Of a stretch of DNA of 33,936 nucleotides, positions 19,377 to 28,653 are shown in pieces. Origin of the DNA: Candidatus Jordarchaeia archaeon (GTDB lineage Archaea; Asgardarchaeota; Jordiarchaeia; Jordiarchaeales; Jordiarchaeaceae). Location of the stretch: NCBI GenBank assembly GCA_018383815.1, contig JAHAWU010000012.1, positions 1 to 33,936 of the forward strand, read 5' to 3'. A program made the position numbers and the translations under genes. The stretch's first letter is position 1. Every line of letters begins with the position of its first letter. Below the pieces are notes generated by a model. The model saw nothing but the letters and a program-made list of their open reading frames with translations. It was not told the origin of the DNA and did not search any database.

Positions 19377-20147
19377 TTGCTTATAATTTTCTGTGGTATA
19401 CCAAGCATCGGAAAAACTCTGGTTGCAAGAAGGCTGGCAATAGAACTTGAAAAAAGTGGCTATCCCACTGTTGTTTTGGGTTCCGACGACATTCGTCGAC
19501 TTGTTCCCGCACATATGGAGATGTTCAACCCGGAGCGGGAAGAGTTCATAAGGGAAACAACACTACACATGGTAGATTATTTTCTCAGCGCAGGAAAAAC
19601 AGTAATCAGTGATGATACAAATTATTACAATGCCATGCGGCATGACCTTATAAGAATTGCAGAAAAAAACAAAACGGATTATGCCATAGTCTATATACAC
19701 GCTCCCCTAGAGCTTGCTCTAGAGTGGAATAGAGAAAGGGGGGAGCCCATTCCCTCCGAGGTCATAAATAGGATCCATGACAGATTCGACGTTCCTGGTA
19801 AAAAGTATAAGTGGGACCAGCCCATTGTCAGTATTGACAGATCCAAGGAATCAGTGGAGGATTCTGTTAAAATAATTCTCCAGAAACTCCAAGAAGGGAA
19901 ACCTCAAAAGAGCGGTAAGCCCCAAGTCTTGTATAAGGCGGGCAAATCTGAGGAAATCGACCGACTTACACGCAGAATCGCTGGAAAAATTTTGGAGGAA
20001 AAAGGCGACAAGATGCTGGCTCGGCGAATAAGCGCTTTGAGAAGGGGTTTTGTTAGGGAAGCGGCTGAGAAGAATTTAACTCTGGAACAGGCTGAGAAGG
20101 AGTTCCTCAAGAAGGTAAAGAGTGTGATTAATGGTGAAAATTTCTGA
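19377..20147 (+). CDS. pstK: O-phosphoseryl-tRNA(Sec) kinase (PSTK)
   Basis: Phosphorylates Ser on tRNA-Sec to give O-phosphoseryl-tRNA-Sec, the second step of archaeal/eukaryotic selenocysteine synthesis. The 256-residue protein closely resembles the Methanocaldococcus enzyme. It has M-L-I-I-F-C-G start, P-loop G-I-P-S-I-G-K-T (about residues 7-14), V-L-G-S-D-D-I-R-R near 40, [15 protein letters not shown] near 80, and [20 protein letters not shown] near 127. The C-terminal helical tRNA-binding half, about residues 190-250, is rich in Arg/Lys/Glu. The start is a TTG at 19377, matching the family's N-terminus exactly. It overlaps the next gene by 17 bases, so it is first in an operon with two nucleotidyltransferases. 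Confidence 0.92.
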
Positions 20148-21189
20148 ATGGGTACCCCGAGATGGCGACGCAATTTTTACTAAAGAGGGATTCATTTTTT
20201 ACACCATTGGATACGTTCATCCAGAGGATAGGGTAATCGCATTTATCAAATATATTCCCAAAGAACTTCAAAGCCATTTTAAAGTGCCTTGGCTACCCTA
20301 TGAGTGGCGGCTGGGCAGCACTCCACTGGTAAGGCCAAAGAAGCTCTACTCGCCCCAAATATACGCTTCCGTCATCTCCTCACTTAAAGAAATTATTCCA
20401 GACACCGTCTACTTTAACCCTTATGTAGGAAAGGAACTGGTGACTGTTCCCAAAAAGCGCATTGAAGAGGTTTATGTTCCCAGCGAACGCTTGAAACATC
20501 TTTTGGAAAAGCAAGACCACGATGAGCTTGAGAGAAAAGCAGTAGAAGTCATAGGAATACTTTCCAAAGAGTCTGGAGTGCCAGTAGAGGATTTTGGTAT
20601 TCACGGCTCCATTTCTCTACAGATGCATAACCAACAAAGCGACATTGACATTTGTATTTATGGAGCCGAAAACTTCAGAAAGGTTAAGAATGCATTCCAC
20701 AACCTGTGCACCAAGGGTATAGTATCAATTCTCCAAGTGGACAAGTTTGACCCCATTAGGCGGAACAGGGGCGTATATCAGAACACAAGGTTTGTAATTA
20801 ATGCCACCCGAAGAATTGAGGAAATGAAGGAGAAGTTTGGACAATACAAGTATGAGGCAATAGTGCCAGTTGAAGCCACATGTCGAGTAACAAATAATGA
20901 TGAATCCATGTTTCGCCCCTCAATCTATGAGGTGGACGACTGCCAGTTAAAACAAAAAGGAAGGGGGGAAAAGCCTAGCAAGGTTGTGAGCATGATTGGG
21001 CAATTCAGAGATTTCGCAAGTGTAGGCGAGAGGATAAAAGTTAGAGGTATGCTCGAAAAGGTGGAGAACCTAAAAACAGGTGAAACCAGTTACCGCATAG
21101 TTGTGGGATCCGGAGTAGGCGAAGAGTACCTATGGCCAATAAATAGTTTACCCAGTTCTCCACCCGAAAAGATTATCGAATCCGATTAA
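20131..21189 (+). CDS. Predicted nucleotidyltransferase 1 (Pol-beta fold), PSTK operon
   Basis: A 352-residue protein with a minimal nucleotidyltransferase core: [11 protein letters not shown] at about residues 155-165, followed by [10 protein letters not shown], the G-S and D-x-D metal-binding signature, and a possible third acidic residue in V-P-V-E-A near 250. An N-terminal domain of about 130 residues precedes the core. The C-terminus ([14 protein letters not shown] near 305-318) looks like a small beta domain. It resembles archaeal predicted nucleotidyltransferases of COG1665 type, whose substrate is unknown. It overlaps PSTK by 17 bases and is followed by a paralogue. A role on tRNA-Sec or in Sec synthesis is suggested by operon position only. 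Confidence 0.75.
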
Positions 21190-21238
21190 AAGGATGAAAA
21201 AGGTGGGGCTTCAATTTTTAAAGGGGGATGATAAAATA

Positions 21239-22312
21239 ATGGTGCTAAAAGTGAGGGACAAGGATGCCCCCATTTCGCGGGAGGGTATCATATTCAGGGT
21301 TTACGGATATGATCATCCTCCCCACGCCTGCATATGTGACGTAGAGTACGCTCCAGAAACCATATATAGGGCAGTGGAGCCCAAAGCGGTGCGCACAGGT
21401 CTCCCTCTAAAGTATTATAAGTTCTATTCGGATGAGGGGCTTAGATTTGTTCAAGAAAAGTATCCCCAATACCAGTTTTTCTATGAGCCACTCCAACGCC
21501 AACTTGTAGGAATAAAAGAGGAACAAATAGTGGAGCTCAATAAACCTGACCAGAAGCTTAAAGAAATTTTGGAGCAGGAGCCCAAAGACAATCTGATGAG
21601 GACTCTGAAAAATGTTTTGGAATTGATTTTTAACCACTCAAAGCTTAAGCCTTCGGACTTTGGTGTTTTCGGCTCCCTCCTGCACGGCTTTTACAATTTG
21701 AATTATAGTGACCTCGACTACGTTATCTACGGAGGAAGCAAGGTTGAAGAACTCGTAGAGGTTTTAGGAGACTTTTACAAGGCTCGGGATGGAGTGCTAA
21801 AAAATGAGTTTGATTTTTTTGATGAAAGAACGGAGCGGAAAAATTGGCGGTTCGAAAACTATAGCCTTAGGGAGTATGAGTGGTATGAGAGGAGAAAGTG
21901 CATCTATGCGGTTTACGATTCAAAGGAGCTGGGCAGGAGAGTTAAGGTTGAGTTTGAACCCGTCAGGGCTTGGAACGAAATAAGAAATGAATATCATCCG
22001 GAAACGCGAATAACGAGGATAGGGTGGATAAAGGCGAAGGCAATTATTCTGGATGACAGGGAGTCCTACTTTATGCCCGCCATTTACCCCATAGAAGTCC
22101 TAGAACTCATTGAAGGGAGGGAAATAGACAACATTGAAAGAATAATCACTTATGTGGAAGAATACAAAATGCAGGTTAAAAAAGGCGAAGAGGTGCTGGT
22201 TGAGGGGACGCTGGAAAAAGTTGAAACACCCAAAAAAACATTCCACCAAATTACTCTAACCCACATTCCAGACAAAAGGTACTACAGGCAAGTGCTGAAA
22301 ATCGCAAAATAG
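21239..22312 (+). CDS. Predicted nucleotidyltransferase 2 (paralogue of the upstream gene)
   Basis: A protein of about 357 residues sharing the layout of its neighbour. The N-terminal domain has I-S-R-E-G-I-I-F-R-V-Y-G-Y-D-H-P (neighbour: [16 protein letters not shown]). The core is F-G-V-F-G-S-L-L-H-G-F-Y-N with S-D-L-D-Y-V-I-Y-G near residue 165, a third acidic site is V-K-V-E-F-E-P near 245, and the C-terminal beta domain is G-E-E-V-L-V-E-G-T-L-E-K-V-E. Sequence divergence is high, so the duplication is old. ATG 21239 follows GGGGGATGAT and is preferred to ATG 21194. All three catalytic acids appear intact in both copies. The substrate is unknown. A CCCTTTTT run at about 22317-22324 may end the transcript. 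Confidence 0.75.
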   Translation: MVLKVRDKDAPISREGIIFRVYGYDHPPHACICDVEYAPETIYRAVEPKAVRTGLPLKYYKFYSDEGLRFVQEKYPQYQFFYEPLQRQLVGIKEEQIVELNKPDQKLKEILEQEPKDNLMRTLKNVLELIFNHSKLKPSDFGVFGSLLHGFYNLNYSDLDYVIYGGSKVEELVEVLGDFYKARDGVLKNEFDFFDERTERKNWRFENYSLREYEWYERRKCIYAVYDSKELGRRVKVEFEPVRAWNEIRNEYHPETRITRIGWIKAKAIILDDRESYFMPAIYPIEVLELIEGREIDNIERIITYVEEYKMQVKKGEEVLVEGTLEKVETPKKTFHQITLTHIPDKRYYRQVLKIAK

Positions 22313-23544: not shown

Positions 23545-24936
23545 GTGCCTGAAATCATCCCAGTTCACATAGGGCTTATGGGTCACATTGACCACGGAAA
23601 AACGCAGGTGGCAAGGGCCCTAAGTGAGGTGGTTTCTACTGCGGGACTGGACAAGCATCCCCAAGCACAGGAGAGAGGAATATCTATAGACCTGGGTTTT
23701 ACATCCTTCCATTTGAACAATTACTTGGTAACCTTGGTTGATGCTCCAGGCCACGCCGAACTGATAAGGAGTGTGGTGGCTGGAGCAAACATAATTGACG
23801 CCGCGATTCTAGTGGTGGCAGCTGATGAAGGCCCAAAAATACAAACTGGTGAGCATATAGTTATTCTTGAAAGTTTCGGCATAAGAAGGGTGCTTGTAGC
23901 TTTAAGCAAAATGGATTTAGTTTCCCCCGAGAGACTAGAAACAGTAAAGAAACAGATTATAAGCATACTTAGGGGAACCGCCTTGGAAGGGGCGCCCATA
24001 ATTCCTATTTCCGCGATTACCGGCGAGGGATTGGAAGAACTCAAAAAAGCCCTTCTAAGTGTTTTATCGCCTCCAAAAAGGGAGAAAGAGGGTCCTTTTA
24101 AGATGCCCATAGACCACGCTTTTCGCGTCAAAGGAGCAGGGACAGTGATAACAGGAACCATCCACCGGGGCAAAGTTTCTACTGGCGACGAAATTGAGAT
24201 TATGCCCCTAAAACAAAACGCAAAAGTGAAGTCTATCCAAATCTTCAGAGAGGAAGTAAATGAGGCCCAAGCTGGAGACCGGGTGGGCATTAACATAACA
24301 GGCCCTGAACCTGAAAAGATTTATCGAGGATGCTATGCGGGAACCCCCAGAACCCTAAAGGTTACTAACCAGCTAATTGGGAGAATAAGGATGAATAAAT
24401 TGTTCAAGTATCCTCTTCACCCCGGTGTACAGGTACACCTCACTGTGGGAATGCCCACAGTCACTGCCACCATGATTCCCTTCAAAACATTTGAGGAGAA
24501 AAAAATCCTTATAGAAGAAGTGGGAAACGAAGACAGTTATGATGCCTTTTTCAGACTCGGCGAAAGCGTGGTTGCGGAGGAGGGAACACCCCTGCTTGTT
24601 TCCCGCCTAGATTTGCCTCCAACAACCCTAAGAATCGGGGGCAGCGGAAAAGTGACCCAACCCACCATTGAACAAACAGAATTCTTTATTGAAAAAATAA
24701 AAAAGGGCCGAGTAAAAGTCCCTGTTCATTCCAAGGGCAGCGTGGTTGTGGGTCTGGCAGAAACCAAGTATGGAGCTGAAAAATTGTTAGAGGAGATTGC
24801 TACTACAGAAAAGGGGAACCGTGGAAAAGTGGTGGACACATTTGGTGGTAGGGGCGCTGTTATAGTCAAATTTGAAAAACCAGTTTTGGAAAACGAAGAA
24901 GTTTTCATAAGGAAGTTTAAGCCACGTAAATTCTAA
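23545..24936 (+). CDS. selB: Selenocysteine-specific elongation factor SelB
   Basis: A translational GTPase that delivers Sec-tRNA-Sec to in-frame UGA codons. The 463 residues match archaeal SelB. They show G1 G-H-I-D-H-G-K-T at residues 13-20, D-A-P-G-H (G3) near 72, S-K-M-D (G4) near 127 and S-A-I-T (G5) near 160. EF-Tu-like domains 2 and 3 follow, then a short C-terminal domain IV of the archaeal/eukaryotic type rather than the bacterial winged-helix tail. The G2/switch region keeps Q-E-R-G-I-S-I-D-L-G-F, characteristic of SelB and distinct from EF-1alpha or eIF2gamma. The start is GTG 23545 with GGGAGGA seven bases upstream. SepSecS follows after 13 to 37 bases, so the two are probably co-transcribed. 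Confidence 0.93.
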   Translation: MPEIIPVHIGLMGHIDHGKTQVARALSEVVSTAGLDKHPQAQERGISIDLGFTSFHLNNYLVTLVDAPGHAELIRSVVAGANIIDAAILVVAADEGPKIQTGEHIVILESFGIRRVLVALSKMDLVSPERLETVKKQIISILRGTALEGAPIIPISAITGEGLEELKKALLSVLSPPKREKEGPFKMPIDHAFRVKGAGTVITGTIHRGKVSTGDEIEIMPLKQNAKVKSIQIFREEVNEAQAGDRVGINITGPEPEKIYRGCYAGTPRTLKVTNQLIGRIRMNKLFKYPLHPGVQVHLTVGMPTVTATMIPFKTFEEKKILIEEVGNEDSYDAFFRLGESVVAEEGTPLLVSRLDLPPTTLRIGGSGKVTQPTIEQTEFFIEKIKKGRVKVPVHSKGSVVVGLAETKYGAEKLLEEIATTEKGNRGKVVDTFGGRGAVIVKFEKPVLENEEVFIRKFKPRKF

Positions 24937-24973: not shown

Positions 24974-26269
24974 ATGAAGGGGCTTATCCCCCACAACATG
25001 CTGGATAGAGGAGCCATTGTTTTGGAATCCCAACTGGATCCCCTGCGTATATTATTCGAGCAGAGAAACATACCTGAAGAGGGATGGAGCGATTCCCAAA
25101 TAAGACTCCTACTAACGATTCTATCCATGATGGACACAGACAAGGATCCCCAAGCAGCCAGGGTTGGGGAGAGAGAAGCCAGAGTAGCTTCGCCTCTTGT
25201 TTCTGAACTGGCAGCTAATTTCTGCCACGGAGTAGGTCGCAGTGGGGAAATATACGCGCCACAACCTAAAGCACCTGGAGCCTCAATAATGTACGCTCTA
25301 GCCAACATGCTGGCCTCTGATGCTATTCGAAGATTCGGAGCCCCCAACTTAAAGTACGCCTTTCTGCTTCCCCTACCTACTGGAATGTCAATTGGACTCG
25401 CAATATCTGCTATGAGACAAAAGAGAAAGGGAAAACATGTGGTTCACCCCCGTATTGATCACAAGTCGCCCCTGAAAGCCATAGAACTTATAGGACTGGA
25501 AACTAAAATCTTAGAGGGCGAGGTTAAGGGCGATGCGGTGATTGTTTCCCCAGAGAGGGTGGAGGAAGCGATAAATGGGGAGACACTAGCAATTCTGTCC
25601 ACAACTACATTTTTCCCTCCCCGCGAACCTGACGATGTTAAGGAAATAGCTAAAATCGCGAAGGAACACAACATTCCTCACATAATTAACAATGCCTATG
25701 GGGTTCAGAGCAGAGAAATAATGAGAAGAATAAGGTCGGCGGTGGACGCTGGAAGAGTAGACGCCGTTGTTCAGAGTACTGACAAAAATTTTCTTACACC
25801 GGTAGGCGGGGCAATAGTTGCTGCGCCTGAGAGAGAAACCATAGAACGAATCAATGAGCAATATGCAGGTAGAGCCACTGCAGCACCAGTAGCACAGTTT
25901 CTGGCTGCGATACTAGCTTTGGGCGTCAAAAAATACGAAAGCCTCAGAGATGAACAGGAAAAGAACAGAAAATATCTAGAGGAGAACCTCATAAAGATCG
26001 CAGAAGAATATGGAGAGAGGGTTCTAAATGTATATAACCCCATAGCCTGCGCCATGTCACTCACCAACAGAGATCCCGTAAAAGTTGGAGGCGCATTGTA
26101 TAACTTGCGAGTAACTGGACCGAGAGCATTAGGGCCTACAAGCTATGGTTCCTGCTGCAAAGAGTATCATACTGCCTACATCACAATGAATGCAGCAATT
26201 GGAACAAGGAAAGAGGACATAGAAAAAGCACTACAAAAACTGGAAGAAATCCTAAGACAAACTAGATAA
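24974..26269 (+). CDS. spcS: O-phosphoseryl-tRNA(Sec):selenocysteinyl-tRNA synthase (SepSecS)
   Basis: The PLP enzyme that converts O-phosphoseryl-tRNA-Sec to selenocysteinyl-tRNA-Sec using selenophosphate. The 431 residues resemble Methanocaldococcus SepSecS throughout. They show G-L-I-P-H-N-M, S-M-M-D-T-D-K-D-P near residue 52, R-V-G-E-R-E-A-R near 62, F-C-H-G-V-G-R-S-G near 85, P-K-A-P-G-A-S-I-M-Y-A-L near 97, the PLP-lysine motif S-T-D-K-N-F-L-T-P near 270 and L-R-V-T-G-P-R near 380. The only ATG for the frame is at 24974 and lacks a good ribosome-binding site. An in-frame CTG at 24950 has GGGAGGT six bases upstream and would add eight residues, so initiation at CTG is quite possible. Confidence 0.93.
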   Translation: MKGLIPHNMLDRGAIVLESQLDPLRILFEQRNIPEEGWSDSQIRLLLTILSMMDTDKDPQAARVGEREARVASPLVSELAANFCHGVGRSGEIYAPQPKAPGASIMYALANMLASDAIRRFGAPNLKYAFLLPLPTGMSIGLAISAMRQKRKGKHVVHPRIDHKSPLKAIELIGLETKILEGEVKGDAVIVSPERVEEAINGETLAILSTTTFFPPREPDDVKEIAKIAKEHNIPHIINNAYGVQSREIMRRIRSAVDAGRVDAVVQSTDKNFLTPVGGAIVAAPERETIERINEQYAGRATAAPVAQFLAAILALGVKKYESLRDEQEKNRKYLEENLIKIAEEYGERVLNVYNPIACAMSLTNRDPVKVGGALYNLRVTGPRALGPTSYGSCCKEYHTAYITMNAAIGTRKEDIEKALQKLEEILRQTR

Positions 26270-26390
26270 TTTTCAAGATAAATAGGTATAGTAAGAGATT
26301 CCGCCTCTCTCGCTTTTGCGGTTAAAGTCTTCGAAAGAGTTAAATTTTTTGTTATTCATTATTAATTACTGTTTCGTGACGGGAAAGGAT

Positions 26391-27050
26391 ATGTTGTCAG
26401 CTGATGTTGATGAGTTGATTAGGGGCTTAAGTGAGGCTTCACGTGTTGTTAAAGCGAAAGGTGAACATTTAGATCTTTTCAGGGTGGCGTATCACGCTGC
26501 CACTTCTCTAAAGTCTTACTGTGTAGATTTTTCTGACAAAAGTGGCGAGGCTCCCTATAGTTTTGAGGCGAGGCTTCTCTCCTTGGAGGATGGGGAGAAA
26601 ACAGTGAAGCGGATAAGAGTGGCAGGCGGCCTTGAAGGAATAGAGTTGAAGGTTTGGGGCTCCAGCAAAGAGAAGGCGGAGAAAAAAATAGGGGAATTGT
26701 CCCAAAAAGTTGAGGAAACCCTTTCCAGAATAGGAAAGATGTCTGTTGAAAATGTTCAAAGGTTTCATAGTGCAGTAACAATAGAAAGGAAGTTGGATAT
26801 GTCGCTAAATCGTCTCCTAACGGGAGCAACTAGACAACAGGTCTACTTTGACTTGGCCGACGCCAGAGAAAGAATAATTCTGCTATTGGGACACTTTGAT
26901 TCCAGCATTATCCAGATGGAGAAAATGTTGGAAGACCTCACGAAACTAGACAAAGACGCACCCATTAAAAAGGAAGTAGGCGAAAAAATGGCTTTAGAAA
27001 TCCTTAAATGGAAAAGAAAAATTAGCGACTACATATCACAACTAAAATAG
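26391..27050 (+). CDS. Unknown helical protein downstream of SepSecS
   Basis: A protein of about 219 residues with no motif I recognise. The C-terminal half (from about residue 105) is strongly helical and charged, with heptad-like patterns that suggest coiled coils. The first hundred residues are mixed, with a short beta-rich stretch. No signal peptide or membrane segment is seen. ATG 26391 (M-L-S-A-D-V-D-E) follows a GGAAAGGAT site and is preferred to the longer frame from 26316, whose extra residues look untranslated. It lies between SepSecS and tRNA-Sec, which makes a role in Sec biology possible but unproven. Confidence 0.65.
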   Translation: MLSADVDELIRGLSEASRVVKAKGEHLDLFRVAYHAATSLKSYCVDFSDKSGEAPYSFEARLLSLEDGEKTVKRIRVAGGLEGIELKVWGSSKEKAEKKIGELSQKVEETLSRIGKMSVENVQRFHSAVTIERKLDMSLNRLLTGATRQQVYFDLADARERIILLLGHFDSSIIQMEKMLEDLTKLDKDAPIKKEVGEKMALEILKWKRKISDYISQLK

Positions 27051-27311
27051 AAAAAGATTTCTGGACAAAATATTCTAAATCCTCCTCTTCCCATGGTATT
27101 ACCGCCTTAGTAATTTTCGCATTACTACACTTTTGCGAAATATCCCAGAGGAAGGACATATACAGAGGAACCTCTTTCTCTAGGATGAAATCAGAAAACT
27201 TAGTATATAAAGAAATAGTAAGCCAGTCGTACTATCGGAAAATGGGCATTCATAAAAAAGGGTAGTATGTAATTTCCGCTAGGAGGAATTTGTTGGCGGC
27301 GGACTGGGGGA

Positions 27312-27344
27312 CCTTCGCAAACATACCCTAATAAGAGTACGTGT
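27312..27344 (-). other. Predicted T-loop intron of tRNA-Sec (33 nt, about position 59/60)
   Basis: A strict bulge-helix-bulge. The outer helix is GGGG/CCCC (the T stem), the central helix TTCG/CGAA, with three-base bulges ATA and GGT. The inner hairpin has arms ACGTACTC and GGGTATGT around TTATTA. Cutting after the second base of each bulge leaves the textbook T arm GGGGTTCGATTCCCC. Without this removal the T arm cannot form. Confidence 0.85.
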
Positions 27345-27398
27345 ATCGAACCCCGAACCCTTGCCGGGTTCCACGGATTTGAAGTCCGGGGCAAGGGA

Positions 27399-27426
27399 TT
27401 GGGCAGAGCCTCTTGGGTAGGCTCCT
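27399..27426 (-). other. Predicted D-loop intron of tRNA-Sec (28 nt)
   Basis: Inserted between TGG and T of the D loop. In the precursor, GGGT (27429-27432) pairs with GCCC to form a 4-bp central helix. A three-base bulge GGA lies on the 5' side, next to an inner 6-bp helix GGAGCC/GGCTCT. The 3' side forms a larger internal loop (AATCCC), so this is a relaxed bulge-helix-loop rather than a strict motif. Cutting after the second bulge base on each side gives the loop TGGT. Confidence 0.7.
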
Positions 27427-27654
27427 CCACCCCTGCTTCAGTCCGCCAATGTTTTATTGTTAAATTACAGGGTTGTTTTGGGGGTTATATTGTTTTTCAC
27501 AGTATTTATTTTTGTTTCCGGTGTTATTTAATAGCTAAGAAGGCGGAGCAAATATTTTGAATTGGCGAGTCATGCATATTTTTGACCGACATCTTATTAT
27601 TATAGCTTGAGTTTTGGTTTTTGATGAGTATTACTAAATTTTTGGAAAGGTAGC

Positions 27655-28653
27655 TTGCGGAGTGTGTACCTTTTGGGTCTCAAAGATTTGGCTGAATCCA
27701 TCAAAAATTTTGAGGGTGTCACGAGGAAGAAGCCCATTATTGACGTTACCCGCCCTTTGAGTGAGACTCTGCGTTTTTCTAAAATTGGCGTAGTAAAGTC
27801 TTTTGGTGAGGATTCCGCGGTTCTGGATTTGGGTGGTGAATACTATCTTTTGGCGGCCACTGATGGAATTTGGCATAAGCTTTTGACCGCTGCGCCAGAG
27901 TTTGCTGGTTATTGTTCTGTTCTGGTTAATGTGAATGATGTGGTGGTTAAGGGTGGAGAGCCTCTAGCACTATTGGATACGTTGAGCTATGAGAATATGG
28001 ATGTGGCTGAGAGCATAATGAAGGGCGTCCTTTTGGGCTGCGAAAAATTCGGAGTTCCCGTGGTGGGTGGCCACCTTCACCCCTCCTCGCCCACTTACTC
28101 GCTCTCGGTAACGGTTCTGGGACGAGTGCCAAAGAAGGAAGTTATCTACAGTGACACCGCAAAGCCTGGTGAGTTTATTCTGGCAGCAGTTGATCTTGAG
28201 GGTAAAGTGCATGAAAATTTTGTTTATGCTTGGGATAGCACTTCTTGGAAAAATCCAGAGTACGTGCAGGAAAAGTTTAGGGCAGTGAGGCGGATTGCCA
28301 AGAGGCACCTAGCTACTGCTGCTAAGGATGTCAGCAATCCGGGATTGATAGGAACTTTGGGCATGCTTCTTGAAGCCAGTCAGGTGGGTGGAGTAGTTGA
28401 TGTTTCCGCCATACCCAAACCCAAGGGTGTAAAGTTGGAGCAGTGGGTTAAAATGTATCCTGGATTTGGGATTGTTATGACTTCTAAACCAGAGAAGGCT
28501 TCTGAGTGCCTCGAAATATTTAGGAGTATAGGCGTTTCAGCTGAAATAATTGGTCGCGTTGATGATTCGAAAAAGCTTTTAATAACAGAAGACAGTGAAG
28601 TTTGTGAAGTATTTAATTTTGAGAGAGATCGACTATCTGGAAAAATTTGGTAA
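27655..28653 (+). CDS. AIR synthase-family protein (methanogenesis marker 2 type)
   Basis: A 332-residue member of the PurM/SelD/HypE superfamily. It resembles the family called methanogenesis marker protein 2. It has N-F-E-G-V-T-R-K-K-P near residue 20, the ATP/metal site G-E-D-S-A-V-L near 52, A-A-T-D-G-I-W-H-K-L-L, A-G-Y-C-S-V-L-V-N-V-N-D-V near 88, and G-G-H-L-H-P near 140. It lacks the glycine-rich Cys/Sec loop that selenophosphate synthetase uses, so it is not a canonical SelD. It starts at TTG 27655 after AAGGT. It diverges from tRNA-Sec, about 200 bases away, which is suggestive. Family members are annotated in methanogens, but the reaction is not established as far as I know. Confidence 0.75.
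   Translation: MRSVYLLGLKDLAESIKNFEGVTRKKPIIDVTRPLSETLRFSKIGVVKSFGEDSAVLDLGGEYYLLAATDGIWHKLLTAAPEFAGYCSVLVNVNDVVVKGGEPLALLDTLSYENMDVAESIMKGVLLGCEKFGVPVVGGHLHPSSPTYSLSVTVLGRVPKKEVIYSDTAKPGEFILAAVDLEGKVHENFVYAWDSTSWKNPEYVQEKFRAVRRIAKRHLATAAKDVSNPGLIGTLGMLLEASQVGGVVDVSAIPKPKGVKLEQWVKMYPGFGIVMTSKPEKASECLEIFRSIGVSAEIIGRVDDSKKLLITEDSEVCEVFNFERDRLSGKIW

Follow-up and report, generated by a model that had tools for sequence, protein, structure and literature searches.

The window that we analysed, a 33,936-nt stretch from a Candidatus Jordarchaeia archaeon, raises the question of how a tRNA-Sec gene (selC) with additional sequence in two of its loops could give rise to a working tRNA. ARAGORN called no tRNA, either in the whole window or in the uncut 154 nt of the gene, and Rfam returned nothing at E ≤ 1 over the whole window. 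With 27426-27399 and 27344-27312 removed, ARAGORN reported the 93-nt form as tRNA-SeC(tca), in agreement with the sequence-only reading, which had proposed that removing inserts of 28 and 33 nt leaves a 93-nt tRNA-Sec. The coordinates it gave for the gene, 27294-27447, are exact, and to these we add the strand (minus), which it did not state. The spliced form has a perfect acceptor stem of 9 bp, a D stem of 7 bp (one G-U) closed by the loop UGGU, a T stem of 4 bp with the loop UUCGAUU, the anticodon UCA, a variable arm of 6 bp (long, as in archaeal tRNA-Sec), G73 and an encoded CCA. According to the sections of PMC5330540 consulted, a 7-bp D stem is the general state in archaeal tRNA-Sec. The earlier description of the acceptor, D and T stems, D loop, anticodon, G73 and CCA was right throughout, but it overlooked a C-U mismatch at the first pair of the anticodon stem, which also occurs in the sister species. 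At the level of sequence, we confirm a doubly interrupted tRNA-Sec gene on the minus strand, with introns in the D and T loops (Table 1).

Table 1. Positions in the window of the selC precursor gene, its parts and the neighbouring genes for selenocysteine (Sec) use
Feature	Position	Strand	Description
PSTK-like kinase (L-seryl-tRNA(Sec) kinase)	19377..20147	plus	KTI12 154.1 bits; TIGR03574 207.5 bits, below cut-off 290.5
SelB / EFSec, Sec-specific elongation factor	23545..24936	plus	aSelB_III and TIGR00475 above cut-off
SepSecS, Sep-tRNA(Sec):Sec-tRNA(Sec) synthase	24974..26269	plus	PF05889 435.1 bits; TIGR03531 515.2 bits
NF045535 Sel_Asgard, putative selenocysteine system protein	26316..27050	plus	174.5 bits, cut-off 132
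selC, tRNA-Sec(UCA) precursor gene	27294..27447	minus (27447 -> 27294)	154 nt; mature 93 nt, encoded CCA
selC exon 1	27427..27447	minus	21 nt: acceptor 5' strand, D stem 5' strand, D-loop UGG
selC intron 1	27399..27426	minus	28 nt, D loop between GG and U; model columns 21/22
selC exon 2	27345..27398	minus	54 nt: D-loop U, D stem 3' strand, anticodon arm, variable arm, T stem 5' strand, UUCGAU
selC intron 2	27312..27344	minus	33 nt, T loop, 59/60; model columns 75/76
selC exon 3	27294..27311	minus	18 nt: U60, T stem 3' strand, acceptor 3' strand, G73, CCA

Independent evidence for the two inserts came from a scan with covariance model R2, for which 13 uninterrupted selC genes were used, all from other Asgard families and none from this order; a second model, R1, included the spliced window sequence, which makes its match on this gene circular. 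R2 gave one match in the window at E ≤ 1, running the full length from 27447 to 27294 (69.6 bits, E 1.7e-13, the E-values of these models being rough), and placed the extra 28 and 33 nt exactly in the D and T loops. The excision runs, and an alignment of the spliced selC with nine other genes, used the boundaries of the sequence-only reading and are not independent of it. That alignment has 93 columns without a gap in the spliced row, and the junction bases GUGGUC and GUUCGAUUC are invariant in all ten rows. Comparison with related genomes had been named beforehand as a check; when it was run, their uninterrupted tRNA-Sec matched the predicted exons column for column. Scanning excisions over a range of positions, we found that one rebuilds the T arm and that four rebuild the D-loop hexamer, among which the 28-nt excision gives 93 nt.

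Searches of the window's genome (3.79 Mb) with a covariance model under stricter filters (E ≤ 1) and with BLAST each gave one match, so that selC is apparently the only copy, a status that we keep as apparent because of the stricter filters and an assembly that is 95.55% complete. Genes of this kind are easily missed by Rfam family RF01852, which at E ≤ 0.01 found all four uninterrupted controls and one of seven interrupted genes, the window gene not being reported. The Rfam tRNA family matched 17 places in this genome (8 above cut-off), which would fit a genome of mostly interrupted tRNA genes. A scan of the genome for the T-loop-intron pattern gave 10 matches against 16 with a reversed control, a count not above chance; ARAGORN called tRNAs in 0 of the 10 before and in 4 of the 10 after the insert was excised, and one of the ten is selC itself with its D intron still inside. 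The PSTK-like, SelB, SepSecS and Sel_Asgard genes lie within 8 kb of selC and their frames are open, and the selD gene of this genome has an in-frame TGA (Sec codon). The Sel_Asgard gene directly follows SepSecS and adjoins selC. On the other side of selC (27655-28653) is a gene for an AIR-synthase-like 'methanogenesis marker 2' protein that scores far below the SelD cut-off, and two consecutive ORFs occupy 20131-22312 between the PSTK-like and KARI genes, the first with a weak Pfam nucleotidyltransferase match and neither with an NCBIfam match.

Under the strict bulge-helix-bulge (BHB) rule that we applied, a stretch of four exon bases pairs with a stretch of four intron bases, the first lying two bases short of the 5' cut and the second two bases short of the 3' cut. 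Both inserts conform to this rule by sequence: intron 1 pairs GGGU with GCCC (4/4, one wobble) between bulges GG↓A and AA↓U (arrows mark cuts), and intron 2 pairs UUCG with CGAA (4/4) between AU↓A and GG↓U. The T-loop motif is as it had been described (UUCG/CGAA, bulges AUA and GGU), and its four pairs also form in the minimum-energy fold. That fold, computed for the precursor (-79.3 kcal/mol), contains every stem of the mature tRNA (acceptor, D, anticodon, variable and T), and the inserts form two hairpins, one on the D loop and one on the T loop. Intron 2 there has 4/4 central pairs, with part of its 5' bulge paired, and intron 1 has 0/4 strict BHB pairs, the 7-bp D stem being kept and a 3-bp UGG/CCA helix lying beside the cut sites as a relaxed form of the motif. 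When the strict BHB is forced at intron 1, the fold becomes less favourable by 6.4 kcal/mol in the window gene and by 5.0 kcal/mol in the sister species. On this modelling, a relaxed motif may be what is cut at intron 1; the GCCCA at the 3' side of this intron fits both registers and cannot discriminate between them. By the rule used, the inner helix has 7 pairs in intron 1 and 2 contiguous pairs in intron 2, in a test that is weak (4 contiguous pairs in 3 of 7 introns at the D-loop site).

A fold with all mature stems, preferred over the strict BHB at the D insert, could also mean that the inserts stay in place as expansion hairpins and that the 154-nt tRNA works unspliced. However, both inserts break stretches, GUGGUC and GUUCGAUUC, that are invariant in the 13 uninterrupted genes, both obey the endonuclease pairing rule by sequence, and the homologues are matched by removal of the inserts, not by their retention, leaving us to regard unspliced function as very improbable. 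Contact between the D loop and T loop shapes the tRNA elbow; with inserts in both loops, the precursor should therefore be inactive until both are removed. Structure and comparison support the reading of the two inserts as introns that are removed.

Relatives in the same order bear on two other explanations, the first being that selC is a decaying copy, with Sec use lost or served by another gene. Although the lack of an ARAGORN or Rfam tRNA at the locus is what one would see at such a pseudogene, the assembly holds no second selC match, the nearby Sec genes are open, the TGA of selD is retained, and a second species of the genus (G078) keeps both sites, with introns of 28 and 34 nt and exons identical to the window gene at 90 of 93 positions. 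The D intron is identical at 21 of 28 ungapped positions; exons conserved and introns diverged are as expected of removed introns, and we give decay hardly any weight. In the sister family, all three selC genes found (G073, G074 and G075) have three introns, sharing the two sites of the window gene and adding one in the anticodon loop (16-20 nt in the D loop, 12-15 nt in the anticodon loop and 17-18 nt in the T loop). An assembly or binning artefact might be suspected from the 234 contigs and 5.14% contamination of the window's genome, but the same sites recur in G073, G074, G075 and G078 with introns of different sequence, and we consider an artefact the most remote of the alternatives. In the assembled contigs of the other two genomes of the genus, the covariance search gave only one weak selC match in G076 (E 0.355) and none in G077, and in both genomes the SepSecS contig ends near the expected start of selC.

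We therefore hold it very probable that the window gene is the functional, and apparently the only, tRNA-Sec gene of an Asgard archaeon of the Jordarchaeia/Freyarchaeia type, spliced from both loops, with introns that we infer from structure and comparison. Its genome, like 6 of the 8 genomes of the order, has two splicing endonuclease paralogues. The first has its best match in 3p1z and 3ajv, which are the Aeropyrum pernix alpha chain (PMC6379350, in the part consulted), and keeps the catalytic His, the inserted loop and a lysine aligned to A. pernix K44; the second has neither the loop nor the catalytic His. By sequence, this pair is what is expected of an (alpha-beta)2 endonuclease with the Crenarchaea-specific loop, and that loop and the K44 lysine have been linked to a broad specificity that includes relaxed motifs (PMC6379350, same part). 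RtcB is encoded in 7 of the 8 genomes, including that of the window. In the mechanism that we propose, the endonuclease, probably a heteromer of the two subunits, would recognize a BHB at the T-loop site and a strict or relaxed BHB at the D-loop site and cut at both, RtcB would join the exons, and the D-T loop contact of the mature tRNA-Sec would form after splicing. Gene content suggests that SerRS, PSTK and SepSecS would then charge the tRNA and that SelB would bring it to UGA codons such as that of selD. The selC introns would be part of a wider pattern across the lineage, in which tRNAs and some mRNAs are interrupted by BHB introns.

In the phylum set of 227 genomes, SepSecS was matched at E ≤ 0.001 in 145, weakly in some. 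Our survey started from the selC matches listed with E-values up to 1.7e-6 and from seven further stretches close to SepSecS; 127 matches were aligned and two were dropped (L197, judged on inspection not to be selC, and L199, truncated by the end of its contig). The 125 loci parsed, in 123 genomes, have no intron in 69 cases, one in 20, two in 31 and three in 5, so that 56 of 125 carry one to three introns, at five sites overall; at least one intron occurs in 54 of the 123 genomes and at least two in 36, and selC was parsed once in 121 of the 123. The sites are the T loop (43), the D stem (28, one family), the anticodon loop (17), the D loop (7, four families) and the variable arm (2). All four central pairs are present in 7/7 D-loop introns (9.4% of shuffles), 17/17 anticodon-loop introns (3.7%), 26/28 D-stem introns (4.1%) and 24/43 T-loop introns (5.0%), the other 19 of these having only three of four; these counts are descriptive, related sequences not being independent. 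The inner helix is less consistent than the central helix, and two D-stem introns needed a one-base shift in the pairing test. Two genes are cut at the 5' side (G118, G098), one has an uncertain 5' end (G080), and two listed as T-loop only (G129, G136) appear to have their 5' part misaligned over a D-stem intron. Because the SepSecS tree covers 30 of the 145 matching genomes and has a weak root, we give no count of independent intron gains.

Several individual loci stood out in this survey. Three selC introns in the D loop, variable arm and T loop occur in G165 and G001 (L168, L169), the G165 bin having 12% contamination. Two genomes, G121 and G112, have two selC loci each (L161, L167, L162, L163); the introns differ in G121, and the G112 pair is identical and close to contig ends, so that a single gene may have entered the assembly twice. 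Nearly all Asgard selC loci (123 of 125) end in GCCA, in contrast to the statement, in the part consulted of a review, that archaeal tRNA-Sec genes are without an encoded CCA (PMC9499178).

Apparent BHB introns, judged from the letters of the genes, also interrupt protein-coding genes of the order. The scan picked out BHB inserts by whether their excision brings back an expected protein motif, so the choice is built in, and a shuffle test was applied to selD only. The selD gene of the window's genome (L233, G000:C133:20063-20983, minus strand) has, besides its Sec TGA, a 30-nt insert containing TAA, and all seven genomes of the order whose selD scores above cut-off are interrupted at the same site, by 30, 31 or 34 nt. 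These putative introns, in this selD and its homologues in G073-G078, hold a stop or a frame change, and the lengths of 31 and 34 nt rule out simple stop read-through in those two. In every insert the BHB helix is 4 bp long and is accompanied by 8-10 inner pairs; once the insert is removed, the product reads (N/S)DVYA(I/K)G(G/A)T, which resembles other Asgard SelD (a pattern search recovered the motif in 22 of 25 further loci); shuffled inserts had four central and at least seven inner pairs in 1 to 7 of 100,000 cases, with position fixed. In rtcB (L257, G000:C175:3989-5323), a 30-nt insert with an in-frame stop precedes the conserved HQGYG. All four genomes of the genus have this insert, as a strict BHB in three (inner helices of 1, 4 and 4 pairs), G078 failing the rule; the three rtcB genes found in the sister family contain no stop. 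Other rtcB rows with a stop, among the phylum matches listed, are G159 and G033. The former, labelled Sigynarchaeota (L004/L064), has a SepSecS 86% identical to that of the window and an rtcB with an in-frame TGA, both probably contamination from the window's lineage. The third gene, cbf5 (L290-L297), is interrupted at GTL↓DP by a BHB insert of 29-35 nt in all 8 genomes of the order, one of which (G076, 1/8) has no inner helix by the rule used. Introns in cbf5 are known in Crenarchaeota, and in 2009 no other archaeal mRNA intron was confirmed, some being predicted (PMC2738675, in part). Among the matches listed in open papers, we found no report of introns in selD or rtcB.

The T-arm intron of Lokiarchaeota tRNA-Sec was reportedly first described in Mariotti 2016. 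At 31 nt, it was the only archaeal tRNA-Sec intron known at the time of the sources, as far as the parts consulted go (PMC5330540, PMC9499178). The window gene resembles it in being an Asgard tRNA-Sec with a 7-bp D stem and a T-arm intron and, on the same parts, differs in its additional D-loop intron, with three introns in the sister family. The tRNA-Sec of Daphnia pulex is also interrupted, in a eukaryote, by a single intron at the canonical anticodon-loop site (PMC5330540, in part). In the parts of PMC9723677 consulted, the tRNA-Sec of Jordarchaeia LHC_bin_1308 is shown and 'insertions and deletions' are described in that of Sifarchaeia and some Lokiarchaeia, the word 'intron' being absent there, as it is from the parts of PMC11227280 consulted. 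Atabeyarchaeia and Freyarchaeia, the latter probably of the same broad lineage as the window, have introns in 92-95% of their tRNA genes, several in over half and often at non-canonical sites, and Sec tRNA is reported present; the parts of PMC11291895 consulted describe these intron-rich tRNAs without describing tRNA-Sec introns. Crenarchaeota and their relatives with multi-intron tRNAs likewise have BHB introns at non-canonical sites and a heteromeric endonuclease, with the special loop in Crenarchaeota, whereas their introns lie in ordinary tRNAs (PMC4090602, PMC6379350, both in part). Among the titles and abstract openings listed for open papers, we found no tRNA-Sec with two or more introns, and the earlier remark that none was known with introns in both D and T loops agrees with this literature, which was consulted in part. 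On the same partial basis, tRNA-Sec had already been described with a single intron, and the presence of two or three together appears to be new. To our knowledge, the multi-intron crenarchaeal and related lineages are without Sec.

ARAGORN and Rfam, two common detectors, miss the window gene, and Rfam failed on 6 of the 7 interrupted genes tried, so that archaea using Sec may be more numerous than counts suggest; Secmarker is said to have found the Lokiarchaeota case, and our comparison of detectors covers ARAGORN and Rfam only. The 'insertions' reported in Asgard tRNA-Sec may be introns. With one tRNA family, five sites, one to three introns and a mostly single-copy gene, intron gain and loss become traceable in Asgard archaea. 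The introns of selD and rtcB, if real, would extend archaeal mRNA splicing beyond cbf5 in the closest known prokaryotic relatives of eukaryotes, and would lead one to expect faulty annotations, for instance a 'stop' within selD. We think it probable that Sec decoding in this order hangs on tRNA splicing at two levels, through a tRNA-Sec with two or three BHB introns and through the selD message, with rtcB itself interrupted in the genus, a likelihood lowered by the rtcB inner helices of only 1, 4 and 4 pairs. If this is true, a BHB intron must be removed from selD to make selenophosphate synthetase, itself a UGA-Sec selenoprotein, and the RtcB ligase may be needed to make itself, allowing a possible feedback on splicing and Sec use.
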